Source: a virus. From it: 40,012 nt of DNA. The stretch lies in IMG/VR virus record IMGVR_UViG_3300049617_000031, positions 1 to 40,012 of that record; one strand, 5' to 3'. The first letter of the stretch is position 1. Each line of letters starts with the position of its first letter. Below the pieces are notes generated by a model, which had not been told where the DNA came from, searched no databases, and saw only the letters and a program-made list of their open reading frames with translations. Positions 31,236 to 40,012 of the stretch are shown piece by piece. The translations under genes and the position numbers were made by a program.

Positions 31236-31257
31236 ACGTCAAACACAGGAGTTGAAA

Positions 31258-32019
31258 ATGAGCAAGGCACAGACCGACATCCGCACCCTGACCGACGGCA
31301 GCGTCGTCCACATCGACACGCAGAAAATTGCCGACGTTGTAAACCGCATGCACTTGCCGTCGGGGCTTGGCACGCACGAAAACGCTTGCAGCATCGCCGC
31401 AATCAACCTCGCGCTGACGGGTGAACTGACCGACAAGATTCCGGATTGCATGTCGGAAGTGATCGGCCGATGGATCATTAGCACGCAGGACGCGATGCCC
31501 GACTCGATGCGTAATTCGCCAGAATGGAAACGGCTGTTGCCGCTCGCCGCCGGTACTGGCAGAGAGCATGAGAAAGAGCGGCTCGACTTGCTGCTGAATC
31601 ACATGTGGACGGTCGCGCTGCCGTTGATTCAGCCGATAGCTGATGCTCAGGGATTCGGTGCCGAATGGCGCGCTATGCTAGCGGAAAAAAGTAAATCGGC
31701 GGCTGCGAGGGCGGCGACGGTGGCGATGGCTGCGGAGGCGGCGGCGAGGGCTGCGGGGGAGGCGTCGGGGTGGGCTGCGAGGGCGGCGACGGCGGCGGCT
31801 GCGGCGGAGGCGTCGGGGTGGGCGGCGGGGGAGGCGGCGAGGGCGGCGCGGGCGGCGCTGGCGGCGCTGGCGGCGGCGAGGGCTGCGGAGGCGGCGGCGA
31901 GGGCTGCGGGGGAGGCGGCGACGGCGGATGTGACGTGGGAAACACTAAACCCCTGCCAGTTGCTCGCCGACTTGATCGCCGTTGGCTCTGCCCCCAGCGG
32001 AGGATCAGAGCATGAGTGA
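31258..32019 (+). CDS. Alanine-repeat protein, copy A
   Basis: 253 residues from ATG with AGGAG six bases upstream. Residues 20-145 are a globular domain (IPDCMSEVIGRWIISTQDAM, LLPLAAGTGREHEKERLDLL, ADAQGFGAEWRAM). About 80 residues of Ala-rich repeats with Arg, Glu, Gly, Trp spacers follow, then a short end domain WETLNPCQLLADLIA. The next gene is a close paralogue with a different repeat. Similar proteins are widespread in phages from memory, with no known function. The repeat is encoded by GCG/GAG/GGG runs prone to slippage. Confidence 0.75.
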   Translation: MSKAQTDIRTLTDGSVVHIDTQKIADVVNRMHLPSGLGTHENACSIAAINLALTGELTDKIPDCMSEVIGRWIISTQDAMPDSMRNSPEWKRLLPLAAGTGREHEKERLDLLLNHMWTVALPLIQPIADAQGFGAEWRAMLAEKSKSAAARAATVAMAAEAAARAAGEASGWAARAATAAAAAEASGWAAGEAARAARAALAALAAARAAEAAARAAGEAATADVTWETLNPCQLLADLIAVGSAPSGGSEHE

Positions 32020-32704
32020 CAACAAAATGAACACCATCGACACACAGAAAATCGCTGAAGTCGTGAACCGCATGCACCTGCCCATAGGGCTGGGCGATAA
32101 GGAAAATGCTTGCTCCATTGCCGCAATCAACCTCGCGCTGACGGGTGAACTCACCGACAAGATTCCGGACTGCATGTCTGGAGTGATTGGCCGATGGATC
32201 ATTAGCACGCAAGATGCAATGCCCGATGCAATGCGAAACTCACCAGAATGGAAACGGCTGTTGCCGCTCGCTGCCGGTACTGGCAGAGAGCATGAGAAAG
32301 AGCGGATTGACTTGCTGCTGAATCACATGTGGACGGTCGCGCTGCCGTTGATTCAGCCGGTTGCCGACGCGCACGGGTTCGGCGATGAATGGCGCGCTAT
32401 GCTAGCAGAAAAAAGTAAATCGGCGGCAATGGCGGCGGCGGCGGAGGCGGCGGAGGCGGCGGAGGCGGAGGCGGCGGAGGCGGCGGCGGAGGCGGCGGTG
32501 GCGGCGGAGGCGGAGGCGGAGGCGGCGCGGGCGGCGGCGGAGGCGGCGGCGGAGGCGGCGCGGGCGGCGGTGTGGGCTGCGGCGGCGTGGGCTGCGGCGG
32601 AGGCGGCGGGGTGGGCTGCGGCGGAGGCGGCGGGGTGGGAAACACTCAACCCCTGCCAGTTGCTCGCCGACTTGATCGCCGCGGGGGGTAAAGAGCATGA
32701 GTGA
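32012..32704 (+). CDS. Alanine-repeat protein, copy B
   Basis: 230 residues from the ATG eight bases inside the end of copy A, preceded by GGAGG. Residues 10-140 are nearly identical to copy A (ENACSIAAINLALTGELTDK and the next 60 residues). The Ala repeat is shorter and made of AEAA units, with Trp near the end, and the same C-terminal WETLNPCQLLADLIA. Recent tandem duplication with repeat divergence. Low-complexity opposite-strand frames (poly-Pro) here are artefacts. Confidence 0.75.
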   Translation: MSDNKMNTIDTQKIAEVVNRMHLPIGLGDKENACSIAAINLALTGELTDKIPDCMSGVIGRWIISTQDAMPDAMRNSPEWKRLLPLAAGTGREHEKERIDLLLNHMWTVALPLIQPVADAHGFGDEWRAMLAEKSKSAAMAAAAEAAEAAEAEAAEAAAEAAVAAEAEAEAARAAAEAAAEAARAAVWAAAAWAAAEAAGWAAAEAAGWETLNPCQLLADLIAAGGKEHE

Positions 32705-32941: not shown

Positions 32942-33127
32942 ATGGGAAAGTTTTTGCGCGTCCTGTTTTTATCCATATCTCACCTCTACGTACTCACCTG
33001 CTTAGGCATCTTGTTTCTGATGCTTCATGACCAGATAGCGTTTCACCGAGCCGAGTTCCGAGTCCAAGCGCTTCAGGCAGAGGCGCTGCTCATTATCGCC
33101 CAAGAGCTGCGCGGCTCTACGACGTGA
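32942..33127 (+). CDS. Small membrane protein (61 aa)
   Basis: 61 residues from ATG with GGGAG eight bases upstream. MGKFLRVLFLSISHLYVLTC and LGILFLMLHDQIAF form a single membrane segment, followed by a helix (HRAEFRVQALQAEALLIIAQ). Base use is less GC-rich than neighbours. A weak TTGACT/TTGATT element lies 55-65 bases upstream. Function unknown. Confidence 0.6.
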   Translation: MGKFLRVLFLSISHLYVLTCLGILFLMLHDQIAFHRAEFRVQALQAEALLIIAQELRGSTT

Positions 33128-33555
33128 GCCTGGGCGCTTCGCTTGACGAGTGGGCTCACTTCGACTTCGTGCTCGGTCTGGGCGCGAACCTGCTCCCGTG
33201 CGTGCCGGCGTCGCCGGACGTAAAGGTCGCCGAGGGTAGCGCGCTCGCTGGCAAAATCGGGAAGATCCCGTCCATGTTGAACGGGCGCGGTGAGGCGCAT
33301 GGCTTGACGGGGTGGCAGAAGCGCGAGATCGAGCCGCAGGAGGTGGCGCACTGGGCGAGCGACCGCCGGTTGAACCTGTGCGTCCGCACTGGGCCGATCT
33401 CAGGCGTGTACGCGTTCGACATCGACGTCGATGACCGTCAGAAATCGGAGGAGATCGTAGCGCTGATCGAGCGAGAGCTGGGAGTTAAGCTGCCAAAACG
33501 GTATCGCGAGAACAGCGGCAAGTGCCTGCTGCTGTTTCGGATGGAGGGCGCATGA
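33124..33555 (+). CDS. Primase-polymerase N-terminal fragment (split gene)
   Basis: 143 residues from GTG overlapping the preceding stop (GTGA). This is the first part of a bifunctional primase/polymerase (Prim-Pol) domain: the metal-binding Asp99 and Asp101 lie in GVYAFDIDVDD, preceded by LNLCVRTGPISG, and the chain reaches the strand SGKCLLLFRM before stopping at EGA. In intact relatives this strand continues into a region found here only after the HNH gene. It starts replication primers and would need the product of 33989-36139 to be complete. Confidence 0.8.
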   Translation: MSLGASLDEWAHFDFVLGLGANLLPCVPASPDVKVAEGSALAGKIGKIPSMLNGRGEAHGLTGWQKREIEPQEVAHWASDRRLNLCVRTGPISGVYAFDIDVDDRQKSEEIVALIERELGVKLPKRYRENSGKCLLLFRMEGA

Positions 33556-33992
33556 GTAAGACGCCACAACGAAGCTACTACGAACGAAACAAAGCGAAGG
33601 TCAACGCCAAGGCCGCGGCGCGCACGAAGTCTCCAGAAGGGCGCGCGTGGTTTAAGAAATACAACCACGACCCGAAGACGTGGCCGAAGCGCGCGTGTTA
33701 TCAGATGAAACGCAGGACCAAAGAACTAGGGATAGCGTTTGATTTGCAGCCAGAGGATCTACAAGTTCCATCGGTCTGTCCGTTCACTTTACTGCCGTTT
33801 GATTTTGGCCCAAAAAGCGGCAAAGCATCTCCGCAGTCTCCGAGTGTGGATAGAATCAAACCTGACAGAGGGTATGTTCGTGGAAATGTCAGAGTCATAT
33901 CTAACCACGCGAACGGGGTTAAAAACAGCTGTACTGACCCTGATGTGTTTCAGCGTCTGGCCGATGACGCTAGCCTGTGGGGCTTCGTATGA
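33552..33992 (+). CDS. HNH homing-type endonuclease inserted in the primase gene
   Basis: 146 residues from ATG that overlaps the primase fragment stop (ATGA) and ends with ATGA overlapping the next start. The N-terminal 50 residues are basic with repeated aromatic/Lys spacing (YYERNKAKVNAKAAARTKSP). The nuclease part has CPFTLLPFDFG (Cys76), SPSVDRIKPDRGYVRGNVRV (Asp100, Asn112) and ISNHANGVKN (Asn118, His119, Asn121), as in phage HNH endonucleases. Less GC-rich codon use than both flanks suggests recent arrival. Probably cuts intron-free relatives of the primase gene and spreads by repair. Confidence 0.8.
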   Translation: MSKTPQRSYYERNKAKVNAKAAARTKSPEGRAWFKKYNHDPKTWPKRACYQMKRRTKELGIAFDLQPEDLQVPSVCPFTLLPFDFGPKSGKASPQSPSVDRIKPDRGYVRGNVRVISNHANGVKNSCTDPDVFQRLADDASLWGFV

Positions 33993-36139
33993 AAAAACGC
34001 AGGCTGAAGCTGGACAACAACCCTCGCGGGCCGGCGGTGGAGTGCCTAGGAGAGGGTCAACAATTCGTAGCGGCAGGGGCGCACAGCAGTGGCGTCCGAT
34101 ATCAGTGGCAAGATGGTTTACCCGAAGCGATCCCGACGCTGACGTTGGATCGGCTGAATTCAATATGGAACCTCTTGACCCGGCGATATGCGACGACTAC
34201 CTCGACCCCCGCGGCCCCGACTGTACCGGCGAAGGCGTCGGAGGCGTTGACGACGGAGGTGCTGACGCAGATCGACGACGAGGGCTGGCAGCGGCTGCTC
34301 GAATCTTTGCGGTACCTGCTCGACAAGGTCCAAGACAATGACAGTTGGAGCGAGTGCGGCTACGCGCTCTTGTCGCTGCAGAGCAGCGGCCGCCCCGCCG
34401 AGCAGCTGTGGCTGGACTTCTCGCGCAAGGCTGTAGGGTACGAGCCGGGCGCCGCCGAGGCGTGGTGGCAGGCCCACAAGCACCAGGCGCCGCGCACCGA
34501 CTGGCGGCACATCTTGAACATGGCCCGACAGCGCGGACTGCAGCGCGTCGCGGACCCGGCCGCGTTCCCGCCAGTTACTAACGAACTACCAGTTCATGCA
34601 GATTTAGTAGATGTCGTCCCGCCGGAGGTACCTCCACCCGCGCGGCGCGTGATCCTCCTCGGAGAGGCGCGGTTTGCTGAGATATTGGACGAGCTGGAGG
34701 AGGTGCTGAACCCGTACGTCTACACGCAGGGCGCGCACTTAGTCCGCACGACCGAGGCGCACAACGAGGCCGCCATCCAGCGTAGCGCCGACGCGCTGAT
34801 GCTGATCCCGGCGACGCGCGACTGGGCGCGCAAGCGCTTCGGGCAACTGTGCGACTTTAAGCGCTACGTGAGCACGCGTGAGGAGTGGGCTGCGGTAGCG
34901 CCGCCCGCCGAGCACGTCAACGCGATGCTGGGTTTAGGCGCTTGGAACACGCTCCGACCCTTGGACGCCATCGCCCGGGCGCCGTTCCTGCGCGAAGACG
35001 GAACCGTCTGCGACGTCGCCGGTTACGACCCCGCGAGCCGGACCCTGTACGTCCCCGGGATCGAGTTCTCGCCGGTACCCGATGCACCCTCGCGCGAGGA
35101 CGCCATCGCCGCCCTCGCGCGCCTGCGGGAGCCGTTTAACGAGTTCCCTTGGAAGGAGGCAGCCTCCGAGAGTGCGTTCATCTCGCACATCCTGGCGGAG
35201 GCTGCGCGCCTGGCGATGGAGCGGTGCCCGATGTACTTCTACGACGCGCCAATGGCCGGCACCGGCAAGTCGACGCTGCAGGAGATGGCGGCCCGTATCG
35301 TGCACGGCACGGAGCCGGCGATGCGCCCGTGGGTGCCCGACGAGGACGAGCTGCGTAAGTCCCTGTACGCGTGCCTGATGGCGGGCGACCGCTCGATCTG
35401 GTTCGACAACGTGCCGGACGGCATCAAGGTGCGGTCCGCGGTGCTGGAGGCGTTCCTGACGAGCGCGGTCTGGAAGGACCGAAAGCTCGGCGAGAGCGTC
35501 ACGACCGGGATACCGAACAAGACCGTGCTCGTTGCGTCAGGCAACAACCTGACGCCCGTGGCCGCGCTCGCGCGCCGTAGCATCGTGATCCGGCTGGACG
35601 CGAACACCGAGCACCTGCGTGAGCGCGTGTTCCGCATCGCGAACCCGCGCCGGTACGTGATGGAGCGCCGCGCGCAGATGCTCATCGACGCGCTCAGCAT
35701 TATCAAGGCGTACCTCGCCGCACCGCCCGCCAAGATGCCGGTCACGCTCCCCAGCTTCGAGCGCTGGTCGCAGCTCGCGCGCGAGCCGCTGATCTGGCTA
35801 GGGATGGTGGACCCGGTGATCACGCAGCTGAACGAGACGGACGACGAGACAAGGAACGTCGGCCCGATCTTCGAGAAGCTTCACGCAAATTTCGGTGAGC
35901 GCACATTTACGGCGGCCGACATGGCACGTATCGTGGGGAGCTTGTCCGATGAGCGCGGCGAACTGTCCGACGCGCTGATGCAGATGGGGTGCTCGGAGCC
36001 GAACAGCCCGATCAAGGTCGGGTACTGGTTGCGCGCGTCGAAGGACAAGATCGGGTCGGGATGGAAGCTTGTGCACGATGGGCATAGCAAGTTCGGCGTA
36101 CGGTGGCGCCTGCAACGAGCGAACGGAGACCTGACATGA
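33989..36139 (+). CDS. Primase-polymerase C-terminal part with SF3-like helicase
   Basis: 716 residues from ATG (ATGA junction); a GTG four codons earlier is possible. Residues 1-45 (ECLGEGQQFVAAGAHSSGVR, His32) complete the Prim-Pol domain begun in the previous fragment. About 85-185 is a PriCT-like domain (WSECGYALLSLQSSG and DWRHILNMARQRG). The helicase lies at about 380-620: Walker A DAPMAGTGKSTL (419-430), Walker B SIWFDN (469-474), sensor VLVASGNN (513-520), arginine finger in ALARRS (526-531). It would unwind the replication fork and, joined with the N-terminal piece, prime it. Confidence 0.85.
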   Translation: MKKRRLKLDNNPRGPAVECLGEGQQFVAAGAHSSGVRYQWQDGLPEAIPTLTLDRLNSIWNLLTRRYATTTSTPAAPTVPAKASEALTTEVLTQIDDEGWQRLLESLRYLLDKVQDNDSWSECGYALLSLQSSGRPAEQLWLDFSRKAVGYEPGAAEAWWQAHKHQAPRTDWRHILNMARQRGLQRVADPAAFPPVTNELPVHADLVDVVPPEVPPPARRVILLGEARFAEILDELEEVLNPYVYTQGAHLVRTTEAHNEAAIQRSADALMLIPATRDWARKRFGQLCDFKRYVSTREEWAAVAPPAEHVNAMLGLGAWNTLRPLDAIARAPFLREDGTVCDVAGYDPASRTLYVPGIEFSPVPDAPSREDAIAALARLREPFNEFPWKEAASESAFISHILAEAARLAMERCPMYFYDAPMAGTGKSTLQEMAARIVHGTEPAMRPWVPDEDELRKSLYACLMAGDRSIWFDNVPDGIKVRSAVLEAFLTSAVWKDRKLGESVTTGIPNKTVLVASGNNLTPVAALARRSIVIRLDANTEHLRERVFRIANPRRYVMERRAQMLIDALSIIKAYLAAPPAKMPVTLPSFERWSQLAREPLIWLGMVDPVITQLNETDDETRNVGPIFEKLHANFGERTFTAADMARIVGSLSDERGELSDALMQMGCSEPNSPIKVGYWLRASKDKIGSGWKLVHDGHSKFGVRWRLQRANGDLT

Positions 36140-37936: not shown

Positions 37937-38155
37937 ATGAGTGACCTAACGCTGTCGGATTATCGGAATGCGGCGCTTGCATCCGCTCGACAAGTAGACG
38001 CGCTCTATATGCGCATCCGCAAGCTTGAGGCTGAGTTGCGGTGGATACACGAAACGAGCCGTAAATCTTTGTTTGAGCGAACGCACCGATCAGCCGCCAA
38101 AGCAGCTCTTGAGGCTTTGTCCGAGATTAACCACAGGATTGCACCTTACAAATGA
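37937..38155 (+). CDS. Small coiled-coil protein (72 aa)
   Basis: 72 residues from the ATG within GGATCAGAGCATGAGTGAC, the same 19 bases found before alanine-repeat copy B; an ATG five codons earlier is possible. LSDYRNAALASARQVDALYM and RIRKLEAELRWIHETS form a helical, probably coiled-coil protein. The stop overlaps the next ATG. Function unknown. Confidence 0.6.
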   Translation: MSDLTLSDYRNAALASARQVDALYMRIRKLEAELRWIHETSRKSLFERTHRSAAKAALEALSEINHRIAPYK

Positions 38156-38895
38156 TCCATTACCACGGTACGCCCATGACCCCTGTTGCGGACATGACCA
38201 AGAGTTTCGCTGCCCGCCACGCTATGGTGAGTTTTGCTCACCCGGAACAGATGGAAATTTGCGCTGAAATTTGTCAATCCGTGGTAATCGACAACGGGGC
38301 ATTTACGGCTTGGAAGCAGGGCAAACCACACGACTTTCAAGGGTATGTTGATTGGTGCCGGAAATGGCTCAAACATCCGGCCGTTGATTGGTGCGTGATC
38401 CCTGATGTAGTTGACGGCAGCGAAGAAGCTAACGACGAGCATCTGTTGCGGTGGCCTTTGCCGGTGCATTATTCGGTGCCGGTCTACCACATGCATGAAT
38501 CCCTTGAGCGGTTAGATCGACTTGCTGCCGAGTACCCCCGAATTGCTTTGGGATCTTCTGGGCAATACGCGGTGATCGGTAATGACGATTGGTGGGCGCG
38601 CATTGCCGACATGATGAACATTCTTTGTGACAAAAACGGGTTTCCAAAAACAAAACTACACGGGCTTCGTATGCTAGATCCCGGCGTGTTTAGTAAGTTG
38701 CCTTTCGCCAGCGCCGACAGTACCAACGTCGCTCGAAATGTAGGCATGGACACTAGATGGAAAGGAACCTACATAACTCAATCTAGAGCAGTGCGGGCTT
38801 TAATTCTAATGGAACGAATTGAGCGGCACGCAAGCGCGTCTTATTGGAGCCGAGAAGCAGTTTCACAGTACCAAAATATGGAGTTACTAGGATGA
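38152..38895 (+). CDS. TGT/DpdA-like base-exchange family protein (putative)
   Basis: 247 residues from ATG overlapping the previous stop. The order of motifs DNGAFTAW (47-54), CVIPDVVDG (81-89), a His pair VYHMHESLERL (113, 115), ALGSSG (132-137), KLHGLRML (168-175) and SADSTN (187-192) is like the TIM barrel of tRNA-guanine transglycosylase, whose Asp nucleophiles and LHG...DS segments occupy similar places. DpdA relatives insert 7-deazaguanine into DNA. The match is visual and moderate. It is followed by a deoxyribosyltransferase-like gene (ATGA overlap), and base composition is less GC-rich than the surroundings. No preQ0 synthesis genes lie in the window. Confidence 0.5.
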   Translation: MIHYHGTPMTPVADMTKSFAARHAMVSFAHPEQMEICAEICQSVVIDNGAFTAWKQGKPHDFQGYVDWCRKWLKHPAVDWCVIPDVVDGSEEANDEHLLRWPLPVHYSVPVYHMHESLERLDRLAAEYPRIALGSSGQYAVIGNDDWWARIADMMNILCDKNGFPKTKLHGLRMLDPGVFSKLPFASADSTNVARNVGMDTRWKGTYITQSRAVRALILMERIERHASASYWSREAVSQYQNMELLG

Positions 38896-39326
38896 ATATT
38901 TATCTTTGTGGGCCGATTAACGGATGCACAGATGCAGAGGCTAACGACTGGAGATCTTCTGTCAAGGCGCGTTTTTCTGGTTGTATTGATCCGATGGTTA
39001 GGGATTACAGGGGAAAAGAAGCGCACGCATATCGGGAGATCGTGGAACTAGACAAGCGCGACGTACGTATGGCCGACATAGTTTTGGTGAACTACGACAA
39101 ACCCAGCGTCGGCACTAGTATGGAGGTTTTTTACGCGTGGACGCTTGGAAAGCCGATTATCGTATGGTCTCGGCCTGATACGGTTATATCTCCTTGGCTG
39201 CGTTACCACTCAACTTGTTTAGTGCATTCAATGGATGAAGTAATTTCCGCAATTGCAAGATGTTCTTGTCCCGCACAAAAGGAAGTCGGCGTCCGCATTG
39301 CCGATTTGCCAGTTCACCATGGCTAG
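38892..39326 (+). CDS. Nucleoside 2-deoxyribosyltransferase-like protein
   Basis: 144 residues from ATG overlapping the previous stop. MNIYLCGPINGCTDAEANDW is the family start (IYLxGP), DP at 33-34 follows, VELDKRDVRMADIVLVNYDK matches the central D..xI..AD.v.vn block, and GTSMEVFYAW (Glu78) is the catalytic region of this family, ending GKPIIVW. Such enzymes swap or remove bases on deoxynucleosides; relatives also act as nucleoside 5-monophosphate hydrolases. The pair with the TGT-like gene suggests nucleotide or DNA-base chemistry. The last 30 residues are Cys-rich and less typical. Confidence 0.75.
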   Translation: MNIYLCGPINGCTDAEANDWRSSVKARFSGCIDPMVRDYRGKEAHAYREIVELDKRDVRMADIVLVNYDKPSVGTSMEVFYAWTLGKPIIVWSRPDTVISPWLRYHSTCLVHSMDEVISAIARCSCPAQKEVGVRIADLPVHHG

Positions 39327-39606: not shown

Positions 39607-39701
39607 AAACATCTGATATTTTCGACGTATTCGCCTACGGCCTGGTTTTTACCGGCCTAATCATCGACACAGCTTTGATTCTACTGGGGGTGTACCCATG
39701 A
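39603..39701 (+). CDS. Tiny membrane peptide (32 aa)
   Basis: 32 codons between ATGA overlaps on both sides. MKTSDIFDVFAYGLVFTGLI then IDTALILLGVYP is one hydrophobic helix. Junctions support reality. Function unknown. Confidence 0.6.
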   Translation: MKTSDIFDVFAYGLVFTGLIIDTALILLGVYP

Positions 39702-40012
39702 AATACGAATTCACGGGAGAAACTAAGGTAGCGCTCGGCGTCACACTCAAACGCATACGTGTGGTGACCGCGTTCGCCGGTCTGGAGATCGGCGCCGTAG
39801 GCGGCTGGATTGCCGACGAAAAGAATTTATCGCAGTTCGACAACGCATGGGTGTTCGACAACGCGCAGGTGTTCGGCGACGCATGGGTGTTCGACAACGC
39901 GCAGGTGTCCGGCGACGCGCAGGTGTCCGGCGACGCATTGGTGTCCGGCAACGCGCGGGTGTTCGGCGACGCATGGGTGTTCGGCAACGCGCGGGTGTCC
40001 GGCGACGCATGG
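39698..40012 (+). CDS. Hexapeptide-repeat protein, partial
   Basis: Starts ATG in an ATGA junction with MKYEFTGETKVALGVTLKRI; runs off the window. From about residue 47 it is a six-residue repeat (NAWVFD, NAQVFG, DAWVFD, NAQVSG, DAQVSG ...), ten units visible. The pattern x-A-x-V-x-G is that of a left-handed beta-helix; in phages such proteins are known only from annotation as repeat or polymer-forming proteins. The 18-base DNA repeat could change length by slippage. Function unknown. Confidence 0.75.
   Translation, partial: MKYEFTGETKVALGVTLKRIRVVTAFAGLEIGAVGGWIADEKNLSQFDNAWVFDNAQVFGDAWVFDNAQVSGDAQVSGDALVSGNARVFGDAWVFGNARVSGDAW

Follow-up and report, generated by a model that had tools for sequence, protein, structure and literature searches.

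The window, that is, the whole stretch of 40,012 nucleotides of viral DNA analysed here (IMG/VR record IMGVR_UViG_3300049617_000031), carries at positions 33124-36139 three overlapping open reading frames (ORFs) in three different frames, of which the outer two encode the parts of a primase-polymerase (Prim-Pol)/helicase and the middle one an endonuclease-like protein (Table 1). The N-terminal fragment ends in ...SGKCLLLFRMEGA and holds motif I (D99/D101) and motif II (S131-G-K133); its Pfam match to the Prim-Pol family (PF09250; E = 4.9e-7) covers profile positions 23-103 of 158, that is, a truncated domain. The C-terminal fragment starts with MKKRRLKLDNNPRGPAVECLGEGQQF and contains the rest of the Prim-Pol domain with motif III (E18) and H32, followed by a PriCT_2 domain (residues 107-168; Pfam E = 7e-5) and a P-loop helicase (GTGKST). 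The coordinates, frames and ATGA overlaps given in a preliminary description of this DNA all held, as did its central claim that an endonuclease ORF with a frame of its own separates the two parts of a Prim-Pol/helicase gene, with no residue lost and no recognisable intron or intein; the point of resumption needs correction, as the C-terminal fragment starts 17 residues ahead of the ECLGEGQQF quoted there.

Table 1. Coordinates of the split Prim-Pol locus and of related split genes (window positions unless a contig is named).
Feature	Position	Strand	Ends or basis
N-terminal Prim-Pol fragment, 143 aa	33124..33555	+	GTG 33124 to TGA 33555; alignment with 50 intact homologues
Shine-Dalgarno (GGAGG) and ATG within Prim-Pol codons R-M-E-G-A, serving as endonuclease start	33541..33554	+	
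ATGA overlap of N-terminal fragment stop and endonuclease start	33552..33555	+	
Endonuclease ORF, 146 aa	33552..33992	+	ATG 33552 to TGA 33992; phrog_3322/phrog_1035 (endonuclease, EndoVII/HNH-like)
ATGA overlap of endonuclease stop and C-terminal fragment start	33989..33992	+	
C-terminal fragment, 716 aa	33989..36139	+	ATG 33989 to TGA 36139
Terminase large subunit, ATPase half, 304 aa	19490..20404	-	PF03237
Terminase large subunit, nuclease half, 258 aa	18714..19490	-	PF17289
HNH-type gene splitting the Prim-Pol/helicase gene in the PriCT_2 region	L008 4503-4985		phrog_1035/phrog_333

Ahead of the locus lie two tandem paralogous ORFs (31252-32019 and 31982-32704, +) with similar N-terminal parts and long Ala/Glu/Gly-rich tails that derive from GC-rich repeats; the second has no family match. 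Beyond it are genes for a queuine tRNA-ribosyltransferase-like protein (38152-38895, +; phrog_887) and a nucleoside 2-deoxyribosyltransferase-like protein (38844-39326, +; PF05014), and a beta-solenoid repeat protein (39698-40012, +; PF18836, YdcK type) with DNA repeats runs off the contig end.

Close relatives of the C-terminal fragment were found on ten viral contigs and on one bacterial metagenome-assembled-genome contig, and near-identical DNA was not found in isolated phages. At the position of the split, the gene is uninterrupted in eight of the ten viral loci and in a ninth relative, L109; a single ORF runs through the site in L002, L004, L005, L006, L007, L009, L010, L011 and L109, which provides the homologues free of the HNH gene that the preliminary description had asked for. 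Aligned with these nine genes, the junction is free of gaps: FRMEGA at the end of the N-terminal fragment and M-KKRRLKLD at the start of the C-terminal fragment correspond to FRMEGE-C-KKRKIKLD in L002 and to FRME(G/E)(E/T/P)CKKRKIKLD in most intact genes. The two fragments thus abut, as had been proposed, with zero residues missing, and a conserved cysteine has become the start methionine of the C-terminal fragment. The other Prim-Pol relatives listed likewise match across the site in one segment, the exception being the contig L003 (there under the name L040), to which we return below.

As a sequence search of solved structures yielded no relatives of the full protein, the Prim-Pol profile or the endonuclease, a fold search was needed. 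The intact domain of L009, modelled from a 50-sequence alignment (pLDDT 94.8), matched the pRN1 Prim-Pol best (1rni; Z 13.8 over 172 residues, rmsd 3.0) and also NrS-1 (6a9w; Z ~9.8), which together with the Pfam match places the protein in the archaeo-eukaryotic primase (AEP)/Prim-Pol fold. In this model the cut maps to the loop that connects strands 132-138 and 145-148. D99, D101, E159 and H173 (L009 numbering) are invariant in 50 homologues, and the DxD of motif I (D99 and D101) lies in the N-terminal piece of the window, the acidic residue of motif III (E18) in the C-terminal piece. The histidine of motif II is absent, and intact relatives have S-x-K in its place; this does not exclude AEP membership, given that Lys or Arg has been reported at this motif for DR0530-like AEPs (PMC5862659). 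Of the active site first proposed (Asp99/Asp101 in one piece and His32 in the other), the aspartates stand and His32 is indeed conserved, but it is not the AEP motif II histidine, and the set would be better given as D99/D101 and K133 (N-terminal piece) with E18 and H32 (C-terminal piece), where K133 and E18 are assigned to motifs II and III by their position in the sequence. As motifs I and II are absent from the C-terminal piece, it is not a complete primase in its own right, a possibility that would have undone the original reading. With the motif residues divided in this way, any active site must draw on both chains and, judging from conservation and precedent, is probably formed from two separately made proteins.

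The inserted gene matches phrog_3322 (E = 1.7e-25) and phrog_1035, the latter annotated as endonuclease VII, that is, families of HNH/EndoVII-like phage endonucleases. The earlier label of HNH finds backing in the phrog_3322 match but not in Pfam, where no match (HNH, PF01844) was obtained, nor in the motif itself, as the canonical D-H is D-R in the window copy and in that of L003. A search with the window protein as a single sequence found no relative, and a search with the two endonucleases as an alignment returned, besides the L003 copy, a single weak match in a region that contains a stop codon. Given the arginine at the position of the general-base histidine, the lack of a Pfam match and the low confidence of an AlphaFold model built from the two-sequence alignment (pLDDT 41.6), the endonuclease may be inactive. 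Its composition is foreign to the gene that it interrupts, with a GC content at third codon positions of 56% in the window and 49% in L003, versus 80-85% in the surrounding gene pieces of the two phages and 83-85% in those of the window. An endonuclease distantly like that of the window also occurs on another contig (L027 1195-2306), downstream of a UvrD_C fragment and in ATGA overlap with a serine recombinase gene.

The same three-ORF arrangement recurs on L003, an unrelated contig, with an endonuclease between the same codons. The two endonucleases are 59% identical over aligned positions, the 5' part of the L003 gene being 42 codons longer, and the N-terminal Prim-Pol piece of L003 is one residue shorter than that of the window. 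Because the layout, down to the codon, is shared by a second phage, it cannot stem from a single error of sequencing or assembly, which also disposes of the frameshift artefact that had been named as a possible refutation. Between the window and L003, dN/dS is ~0.18 for the N-terminal piece, ~0.19 for the C-terminal piece and ~0.15 for the endonuclease, the last value being limited by a dS near saturation; pairs of intact genes give a similar 0.13-0.16 for the C part. All three ORFs are thus under purifying selection and neither Prim-Pol half resembles a pseudogene, which would be indirect evidence that a working enzyme is made from the two halves.

These values bear on the possibility that the insert inactivated the primase and that the phage is either defective or uses another replication protein. 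An enzyme would not normally survive a cut between its catalytic motifs and, as the window is a fragment, another primase could be encoded elsewhere. Nevertheless, both fragments keep their full length and a constrained sequence (dN/dS ~0.18-0.19) in two phages that have diverged to 75% identity, the borders are overlapping starts and stops rather than random stops, and the window holds no second copy of the Prim-Pol/helicase gene. We consider such a loss of function unlikely, although it is the strongest of the alternatives.

Many phage HNH genes sit in introns, and an intron (group I or other) that carries the ORF and is spliced out to give one intact protein would accord with this habit, more so as the gene would regain its intact length if exactly 436 nucleotides were removed between GCA and ATG. 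The insert is, however, coding from end to end with four-base overlaps on both sides, and the two inserts at this site differ by 42 codons in their 5' parts. Splicing in L003 would leave one residue fewer, and in both phages the C-terminal piece has a start codon where the conserved cysteine stands. No group I or group II intron structure was recognised: an Rfam scan of the window yielded no match at the gathering threshold, a further scan gave none at E ≤ 1, and the intron reading was rejected on these grounds. We regard it as quite improbable.

The Prim-Pol split is not isolated. In L008 the gene is intact at the site used in the window, yet it is cut ~165 codons downstream by another HNH-type gene (Table 1), again with overlapping ends and nothing lost. 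The terminase large subunit is also encoded in two halves in the window, joined by a start/stop overlap (TAATG), and this split is present in 11 of 11 members examined (the window and all ten relatives with the region), whereas in EBPR podovirus 1 both halves lie in one annotated gene, gp39. In L118 (from the phage of L008) a complete 166-aa HNH-like gene (2275-2775, -) stands exactly between the terminase halves; in L117 (from the phage of L009), of which the aligned 5' flank is identical to that of L118, that gene is reduced to a few bases from either end. An endonuclease can thus disappear while the split that it occupied persists. It is conceivable that the Prim-Pol gene, too, was split first and that the endonuclease arrived afterwards, in an intergenic gap where it did no harm, an order of events that would be possible for the terminase, which is mostly split without an endonuclease. 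For the Prim-Pol gene, by contrast, no member is split at the site without an endonuclease, and the gene is unbroken there in the nine close relatives as well as in the remaining full-length matches listed, so that we give this order even slightly less weight than an intron.

The start of the inserted gene points to how it may have found its place. Its Shine-Dalgarno sequence is made of Prim-Pol codons and has a pairing energy of -9.8 kcal/mol in the window and -9.3 kcal/mol in L003, within a range of -9.3 to -10.2 kcal/mol over the endonuclease starts (-10.2 kcal/mol in L008). In all nine intact genes this position is occupied by an out-of-frame ATG or GTG, the energies ranging from -6.5 to -9.8 kcal/mol, against a median of -2.2 and a 5% quantile of -6.6 kcal/mol for out-of-frame ATG/GTG codons across these genes, a background that contains the latent sites themselves. 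Such latent sites in uninterrupted genes imply that the endonuclease settled on a ready-made start. The start of the C-terminal piece is preceded by a weaker Shine-Dalgarno sequence supplied by the 3' end of the endonuclease gene (-4.7 kcal/mol in the window, -5.9 in L003 and -9.5 in L008) and, in combination with the ATGA overlaps, these sites suggest coupled re-initiation. That ribosomal frameshifting yields a long Prim-Pol-HNH-helicase fusion, or that the insert is an intein, seems scarcely credible: the ORFs do overlap, each frame being one base off the preceding one, but the endonuclease and the C-terminal piece each have their own start after a Shine-Dalgarno-like stretch, a fused HNH would lie within the Prim-Pol fold, and the endonuclease is in another frame, with no intein domain found in profile searches.

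The insert and its flanks have moved horizontally. A tree of the helicase half places the window and the intact L002 as sisters (100/98), and a clade of the window with L003 is rejected (AU p 0.0045), whereas in a tree of the flanks (-45 to +40 codons around the insert) the window and L003 are sisters (100/99) and a pairing with L002 is disfavoured (AU p 0.025). Identity between the window and L003 surpasses that with other members chiefly around the insert; in the flanks, the excess at third positions is only slightly above the gene background. The foreign composition of the insert also speaks for its mobility. The conflict between trees and the local identity support homing with co-conversion of the flanks, of which they would be the expected footprint. 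Phage genomes are mosaic, and general recombination could therefore mimic such a conflict.

On balance, we think it probable that a free-standing homing endonuclease split an intact Prim-Pol gene and that the two pieces form an active enzyme. According to this model, an intact Prim-Pol/helicase gene was invaded by the endonuclease gene at a point between motifs II and III, where the newcomer adopted a pre-existing out-of-frame Shine-Dalgarno sequence and ATG/GTG as its own start, and its 3' end came to give the downstream piece a start codon and part of a ribosome site. One polycistronic message would then yield three proteins by coupled re-initiation at the ATGA overlaps, and the two Prim-Pol pieces would fold together non-covalently into an active primase-polymerase-helicase, like the halves of Aeh1 NrdA. 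Provided that the putative nuclease is active and its target is the uninterrupted site, the element could home into intact relatives upon co-infection while being safe in its own genome, because the insertion destroys the target site.

A broader reading, to which we assign even chances, is that homing endonucleases, with the help of latent ribosome-binding sites, have in this clade repeatedly converted essential enzymes of a single chain into permanently multi-chain ones, with a Prim-Pol active site made of two polypeptides as one outcome. Living relatives would then represent the stages, that is, the intact Prim-Pol and the Prim-Pol split with an endonuclease at two sites, followed by the terminase with an endonuclease, with a deletion scar and split for good. 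In the papers searched, few cases combine relatives of all four kinds (uninterrupted, interrupted, interrupted elsewhere and scarred), and the clade would allow tests of how lasting multi-subunit enzymes arise through selfish genes, of whether the places where such genes can settle are set by latent ribosome-binding sites, and of whether two chains can form a primase active site. This natural break point would, in addition, lend itself to switchable split polymerases.

Among known systems, pRN1 ORF904 and the Prim-Pol of phage NrS-1 (1rni and 6a9w) share both the fold and the Prim-Pol-plus-helicase layout, but they are single polypeptides, whereas here there are two, and canonical AEPs have His at motif II where the window has Lys. 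The inserted protein recalls the F-CphI/Endo VII-motif homing endonucleases (PMC6083498) in its phrog_1035 match and in a nuclease-like motif at the C-terminal end, yet neither of the defining features of that family, the DHDH core and the CX2C pairs, is present in it. The ShiLan-type insertions in phage methylase genes (PMC11855218) are likewise mobile out-of-frame HNH ORFs that are neither introns nor inteins; ShiLan, however, keeps the host frame open and gives one long protein, whereas in the window the host gene really is broken into two ORFs. That split genes occur beside homing endonucleases was already appreciated in the preliminary description, and the literature bears this out. T4 gene 60/39 is split near mobA, and Aeromonas phage 25 gene 43 is split with a seg gene, its pieces co-purifying with polymerase activity (PMC2988022); both are replication genes, as here, but encode a topoisomerase and a B-family polymerase, respectively, and neither is an AEP primase-polymerase. 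A split primase-polymerase with a homing endonuclease was not found in the literature searched, and one may exist outside it. A close parallel is nrdA-a/mobE/nrdA-b of Aeromonas phage Aeh1 (PMC2988022, which cites the PNAS 2007 work), in which a free-standing HNH endonuclease also interrupts an essential enzyme gene in a functionally critical region; its two halves form ORFs of their own and were shown to give an active enzyme. Aeh1 differs in the gene and in the endonuclease family. In the window both borders are four-base overlaps without residue loss, and enzyme assembly, shown for the NrdA halves, is only predicted for the Prim-Pol pieces. The split primase-polymerase thus adds a new case to a known kind of endonuclease-split phage genes.
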